From contig CAJJCB010000022.1 in assembly GCA_905182565.1 (NCBI GenBank), positions 62,001 through 126,000 of the forward strand: a DNA stretch of 64,000 bases. The letters are read 5' to 3'. The translations under genes were made by a program, and so were the position numbers. Below are positions 63,229 to 64,000 of this stretch, piece by piece. The notes under the pieces were generated by a model that saw only the letters and a program-made list of their open reading frames with translations, was not told the DNA's origin and made no database searches. Source of the stretch: Acidimicrobiaceae bacterium. Lineage in GTDB: Bacteria; Actinomycetota; Acidimicrobiia; Acidimicrobiales; Poriferisodalaceae. How positions within the stretch are numbered: position 1 is the first letter of the stretch; every line of letters starts with the position of its first letter.

Positions 63229-63420
63229 TTAATAGTTTGTCTCTACAAGGCTGCTTCCTTCATGTCGCTCTTCAGCATCACGTTTTAGCATCCCACCCAT
63301 TAACGCAGCCAGAGCCGCAAGGCTCATCGGTATTATAAATGGGCTTAGCAACAACAAAGCCGCCATTACTATTCCACCTGCCATGACATTGATAGTAGCG
63401 AATTCGTGAAGCGAAATCAT
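63229..63420 (-). CDS. Small membrane protein
   Basis: A 63-residue protein with one or two hydrophobic segments (GGIVMAALLLLSPFIIPM then SLAALAALMGGM) followed by a charged tail KRDAEERHEG. Not recognised. It converges with the regulator and is followed upstream by the selenoprotein candidate, with which it may be transcribed. Confidence 0.5.
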   Translation of the reverse strand: MISLHEFATINVMAGGIVMAALLLLSPFIIPMSLAALAALMGGMLKRDAEERHEGSSLVETNY

Positions 63421-63467: not shown

Positions 63468-63767
63468 TCATTTGATCTCACTCGATGCAGCGTTGAAAAC
63501 CGCAACAATTTTTCGACCAGTTAAGCCTCTAGCTACTAACACCAATTCTCCAAACTGACTGTTCAAAAAAGGAGCAACTAATACCCTAATGCCGTCAATT
63601 TCATGGATTATGTAACCTGAAATATCTTTGCCCTTTCGTGCAATGTCGACCGACATTTGCGATGTTTCAGGACTTCAACCAGATGTTGGAGCTATCCAAT
63701 CGATAACTACCGCCTGGGTCCGGCGAGAGATCAAAGATTTTACTTTCGAGCTAACAGATACTTTCAT
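63468..63767 (-). CDS. Candidate selenoprotein, in-frame UGA at codon 31
   Basis: A 99-residue reading frame (with UGA read as Sec). The ATG at 63765-63767 has GAGG five to six bases upstream. The first 30 codons read MKVSVSSKVKSLISRR then TQAVVIDWIAPTSG; an in-frame UGA (63675-63677) follows, then 68 more codons in good protein style (GIRVLVAPFLNSQFGELVLV) to a normal stop at 63468. The downstream part starting at the Met at 63656 has no ribosome binding site. A hairpin with a GGUC loop follows the UGA, and selC is in the window. The fold is not recognised; a plain nonsense mutation or sequencing error is the alternative. Confidence 0.62.
63640..63660 (-). promoter_or_regulatory. SECIS-like hairpin after the in-frame UGA
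   Basis: On the minus strand GCAAAUGUC pairs with GACAUUGC (8 bp, one bulged A on the 5' side) around the loop GGUC. The loop lies 23 bases after the UGA. The E. coli fdhF element also has a GGUC loop, a 5' side bulge, and lies about 18 bases after its UGA. Confidence 0.6.
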
Positions 63768-64000
63768 ATAAACCTCAGGCCGAACAATAAACTAATGCAG
63801 GTTCGACTGTCGAACTTAGTAAGCATGAATTACAAGCCTCACCCAGTTGTCACAAGAATTAAGTTCTTCTCAGGCTTCAACGTGCTGATTTACTTCTTCC
63901 CAAGATTGACGAAAATTCGATCACCAACCATCATCAACCAACTAATATCTATTATTTAACAAAGTTTAAACTTTCACGAATTCGGTCGACATCAAAAATC
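63768..64000. other. Window end, no clear gene
   Basis: Beyond the palindrome I see no convincing ORF on either strand. A 100-codon plus-strand frame overlapping it is antisense to the selenoprotein gene and looks random. Confidence 0.4.
63801..63815. promoter_or_regulatory. Palindrome GTTCGAC-T-GTCGAAC
   Basis: A perfect 7-bp inverted repeat with a 1-base centre, 34 bases before the ATG of the selenoprotein candidate. It could be its operator. It is unlike the actinobacterial LexA box, which has the half sites in the opposite order. Confidence 0.4.

Follow-up and report, generated by a model that had tools for sequence, protein, structure and literature searches.

The locus studied here raises two questions: whether a small reading frame containing one in-frame UGA is a genuine gene for a selenocysteine (Sec) protein and, if so, what kind of protein it encodes. 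We analysed a 64-kb stretch of DNA (hereafter the window) from contig C22 of a draft genome that measures 2.65 Mb and is 96% complete.

Gene and reading frame

The frame runs on the minus strand from 63767 down to 63468. Beginning with ATG, 30 codons precede the UGA, 68 open codons follow it (32–99), and a second UGA serves as the stop at codon 100. The relevant features are:

63468–63767, minus strand: very probable selenoprotein gene, 99 amino acids plus the stop UGA at 63468–63470; 56 Sec-type members read
63675–63677, minus strand: in-frame UGA at codon 31, probably read as selenocysteine; invariant column with UGA in 56 sequences and a Cys codon in six
63773–63776, minus strand: Shine-Dalgarno-like GAGG, 5 nt before the ATG, read directly

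A preliminary description had reported a small gene with a good ribosome binding site, a single UGA at codon 31 and 68 open codons beyond it, all of which holds, with the gene on the minus strand. Its translation is MKVSVSSKVKSLISRRTQAVVIDWIAPTSGUSPETSQMSVDIARKGKDISGYIIHEIDGIRVLVAPFLNSQFGELVLVARGLTGRKIVAVFNAASSEIK. A 63-codon frame for a small membrane-type protein lies 48 nt downstream (63229–63420, minus strand) and is also kept by the sister species, with identical spacing.

Taken alone, the open frame around UGA31 is weak support for a selenoprotein, since among the window's 2376 UGAs 16 are preceded by at least 30 open codons and followed by at least 68. Comparison with relatives, on the other hand, lifts this reading far above chance, because dN/dS is low on either side of the UGA and both UGA and hairpin occur in 56 of 56 Sec-type members.

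Conservation and distribution of the family

The sister species carries the gene at 85% identity, UGA included. Between the two species dN/dS is about 0.2–0.35 before and 0.16–0.28 after the UGA, depending on the method; judged from these sequences, purifying selection persists beyond UGA31. The family is widespread in bacteria of the Acidimicrobiales type: two rounds of searching, the first with the NF041239 model and the second with a nine-member alignment, gave matches in 55 of the 397 genomes searched within the order and in 14 of 396 genomes sampled across the phylum. More distant relatives of a CC type appeared as well, two in each search.

The UGA falls in one alignment column in 56 Sec-type sequences, and six others carry Cys exactly there, in a GCG motif, as the preliminary description had proposed to look for; the Sec/Cys column is invariant in all 62. 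Coding sequence is conserved on both sides of the in-frame UGA, including the part upstream of position 31, whose lack of conservation had been named as a possible refutation. The conserved residues are Sec31, Tyr52, Asp23, Gly30 and those of the VSVDT and KGK blocks. Of the 56 Sec members, 51 have a C-terminal Cys; the five that lack it include the window's genus, where Sec31 is the only Cys/Sec-type residue of the protein.

In the protein tree the GCG forms are nested inside the Sec forms, and replacement of Sec by Cys therefore seems the simpler reading; strongly supported branches do not fix the number of changes. Within the window's own family the gene occurs only in this genus, although twelve others tested retain SelB. 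One member (L032, genome G180) has a second in-frame UGA at codon 95, followed by HGNC and TAG, which would restore the C-terminal Cys of its relatives (HGPNC); it is possibly a two-Sec member or a sequence error.

A covarying hairpin downstream of the UGA

Just downstream of UGA31 lies a hairpin with G in its apical loop and support from covariation:

63640–63660, minus strand: SECIS hairpin GCAAaUGUC-GGUC-GACAUUGC, with a bulged A on the 5' side and the loop GGUC at 63648–63651; loop in 56 of 56 and compensatory stem changes
63630–63673, minus strand: possible outer SECIS stem GUCCU/AGGGC, seen only in the two species of the genus

The GGUC loop and 5' bulge, 23 bases after the UGA, had been described from the window sequence, and the family bears them out. 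In the window gene the loop begins 23 nt beyond the last base of UGA31; all 56 Sec-type members have the GGUC apical loop, which starts 23 or 26 nt after the UGA, counted from its U. The stem has six pairs, and across these members 335 of the 336 cells hold a standard pair; three of the six show changes on both sides: U-A to G-C, accompanied in the protein by SVD to AVA; G-C to A-U in the window's genus, accompanied by V to M and T to I; and G-C to C-G. The covariation score of 0.187 compares with 0.066 for shuffles. None of 500 shuffles reached it; kinship among the sequences inflates this result, but the signal is destroyed when the partner column is slid by one to three. In the outer stem, a one-sided change from U-G to C-G preserves pairing in the sister species.

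Codon usage follows the same pattern. The stem serine is TCG in 52 of 52 cases, compared with 69 of 222 for serines elsewhere in the same genes, and the loop valine is GTC in all 56 Sec members. The GGUC loop is absent from that site in all seven genes without the UGA, and none of the six GCG Cys forms keeps it. Because of this loop invariance, stem covariation, codon bias and absence of the loop without UGA, the RNA structure itself, beyond the peptide, appears to be under selection. The local folding energy of the region is unremarkable (z -1.07), and energy alone is not decisive.

Selenocysteine machinery of the genome

53237–53332, plus strand: tRNA-Sec (selC), found by ARAGORN and by Rfam RF01852 (65.5 bits)

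The tRNA-Sec had already been noticed in the window. Adjoining genes for selA and then selB lie 6.6 kb beyond the window's end, and therefore the selenoprotein gene sits between selC and selAB; selA was named by its sequence and its position before selB. With selD, which has a UGA of its own at codon 11 of the matched stretch, selA, selB, selC and selD are all present in the genome, including the three that the preliminary description had suggested looking for. Between the selenoprotein gene and selA-selB lie genes for a carrier of the ErpA type and a P-loop protein of the Mrp/ApbC type (L021 3588-5198).

By their sequences, formate dehydrogenase alpha (FdhA) would be the second selenoprotein of this genome and SelD the third. 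The FdhA gene (L119, G000:C17:181488-183362) contains a single in-frame UGA, and the hairpin after it has the loop GGUCU. After the SelD UGA (L024 1531) we found no hairpin with a GGUC apical loop at the usual distance downstream, and the loop is therefore common to FdhA but not established for all Sec genes here.

Of the 28 Sec-type genomes tested, 27 have a SelB that scores above the cut-off, and the one that does not is 80% complete; among the six GCG-Cys genomes only one has it (p 1e-4, without correction for kinship). Matches of about 400 amino acids near E 1e-61, under the cut-off and EF-Tu-like by length, were left out of this count.

Reading of UGA31 and of the terminal UGA

The preliminary description had proposed a candidate selenoprotein, and the 56 UGA members, six Cys homologues, SECIS covariation and sel genes support it. 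We put the probability at roughly 0.93 that this is a real selenoprotein gene with UGA31 as Sec, its product belonging to the IscA/SufA/HesB fold class predicted by modelling; the estimate excludes the biochemical role. Mechanistically, SelB carrying Sec-tRNA-Sec would bind the GGUC-loop hairpin just downstream and the ribosome would read UGA31 as Sec, as covariation and gene content suggest.

Other readings of the two UGAs fare poorly. A pseudogene, two short frames split by an ordinary stop, or a sequencing error might look like this, and the window does contain 16 comparably long frames around a UGA; however, UGA, frame and hairpin are conserved in 56 genes, dN/dS is well below 1 on either side, and Cys appears in the same column mostly in genomes lacking SelB, all of which makes such an accident extremely improbable. 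General reassignment of UGA to Trp or Gly is scarcely credible, with nothing found in its favour: the gene itself terminates at UGA, its homologues have Cys and never Trp or Gly in the column, and the downstream hairpin covaries. Finally, UGA100 could also encode Sec, giving a U31/U100 protein with six or seven extra residues. In both species of this genus, which has lost the C-terminal Cys, the frame does continue for several codons past UGA100, but non-synonymous differences between the two affect 4 of 7 codons after UGA100 against 14 of 98 before it, and no GGUC hairpin is visible in the few remaining codons. We therefore rejected this second Sec as very unlikely.

Predicted fold and proposed function

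An AlphaFold model based on 62 sequences has a pLDDT of 83. Among solved folds, those standing out against it are of the IscA/HesB type; the closest structures are SufA (2d2a, Z 9.3) and IscA (1x0g, Z 9.0), followed by other HesB-type proteins. Foldseek E-values for this match, obtained with the predicted model as query, are just above 1e-3. In the profile alignment Sec31 falls on Cys35 of the genome's own ErpA. The product would be a small protein whose predicted fold is of the IscA/SufA/HesB class, with Sec31 at the position of IscA's cluster- or metal-ligating Cys35.

Fold, the Sec31/Cys35 alignment, the conserved residues and the C-terminal Cys pattern lead us to infer either a carrier-like or a redox role. 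The most likely function, at somewhat less than even odds, is that of an A-type-carrier-like protein whose selenolate serves as ligand to iron, to an Fe-S cluster or to another soft metal. A close second, still tentative, is a redox selenoprotein in which Sec31 forms an oxidoreductase or peroxidase-type site, with either the C-terminal Cys or an external thiol, e.g. mycothiol, as resolving partner. Most characterised selenoproteins are indeed redox proteins (PMC13188914), and most members have no such residue other than Sec31 and a single C-terminal Cys; the predicted fold, however, is IscA-type and not thioredoxin-type, and five Sec members have no C-terminal Cys.

Neighbouring genes do not decide between carrier and redox roles. 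Among the loci compared we found no constant neighbourhood pointing to Fe-S metabolism, and a fixed operon partner was rejected, as neighbours vary between families. In several families (L089, L090, L092, L093) hemY is found upstream of the gene, preceded by hemE in L089 and L090, and lnt downstream, with dtd after it; in others it lies between rne and rplU (L094), and one further family has an ogt-like neighbour. Only in the window's genus are selAB neighbours.

Returning to the carrier-like function, a more specific version, which we consider rather unlikely as a whole, is a free-standing A-type-carrier analogue with one selenolate per chain in place of IscA's three cysteines: a selenium-ligated metal or Fe-S carrier, forming an undescribed family common in Acidimicrobiales-type Actinomycetota.

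Significance

These results add a well-supported selenoprotein subfamily in environmental actinobacteria, a group for which our literature search found no described selenoproteome. As no curated model matches them at threshold, annotation is likely to truncate its genes at codon 30 or to overlook them. The family also lends itself well to studying how Sec is retained or lost in nature: Sec-to-Cys swaps coincide with SelB loss, and SECIS pairing is tied to amino-acid changes (S-V-D to A-V-A; V to M; T to I). If Sec does ligate metal in an IscA fold, this would be a new use of selenium.

Relation to known families

The preliminary description did not recognise the family and thought it might be undescribed. 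No curated model captures it at threshold, which upholds part of that view, but it does have a remote relative, NF041239, and a predicted fold of IscA/HesB type. Pfam and PHROGs searches gave no meaningful family, the family profile had no match among PDB sequences, and the viral contigs searched held no relative.

The A-type Fe-S carriers IscA, SufA and ErpA share the IscA/HesB fold with our protein, here by predicted model only. They have three Cys (C35 and a C-terminal CxC), whereas the window protein has Sec31 for Cys35 and no CxC; in place of that tail, most Sec members keep one Cys and the window's genus none. Against the IscA HMM TIGR02011 the protein scores 12.5 bits (cut-off 150.6). 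The HesB-like selenoprotein TIGR01911 likewise has Sec in an IscA/HesB-type protein (PMC13188914), but its HMM gives no match at E<=1 and its UxGP motif is missing (the window gene has U-S-P-E, others mostly U-G-K or U-G-G). Hypothetical protein DG (NF049953, motif GUxG; PMC12013277) has a short motif similar on paper, yet its model also gives no match at E<=1. A published list of 119 prokaryotic selenoprotein families includes NF041239 and TIGR01911, and no entry in it could be matched to the features of this subfamily (PMC13188914).

The only clear NCBIfam relative, below threshold, is NF041239, the CC/Se motif family (seleno)protein, a hypothetical protein predicted in Moorella thermoacetica. 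The two are homologous over their whole length (profile-profile probability 97.5, E 6e-12 versus four CC-type actinobacterial relatives), with Sec/Cys at the matching place in both. All 11 first members match its model at E<=1; the window protein reaches 24.6 bits, below the curated cut-off of 40. NF041239, however, has C-C or C-U, whereas the present proteins have G-U-G, with Gly for the preceding Cys and no Cys before Sec in 56 of 56; they also differ in their conserved VSVDT, KGK and Tyr52 and in the C-terminal Cys of most members. Neither NCBIfam (June 2026) nor Pfam has a model that captures the GUG-motif proteins at threshold, and single members may already be annotated in RefSeq. Sequence comparison thus points to a new subfamily distantly related to NF041239, a solid but incremental addition to the known selenoproteins.
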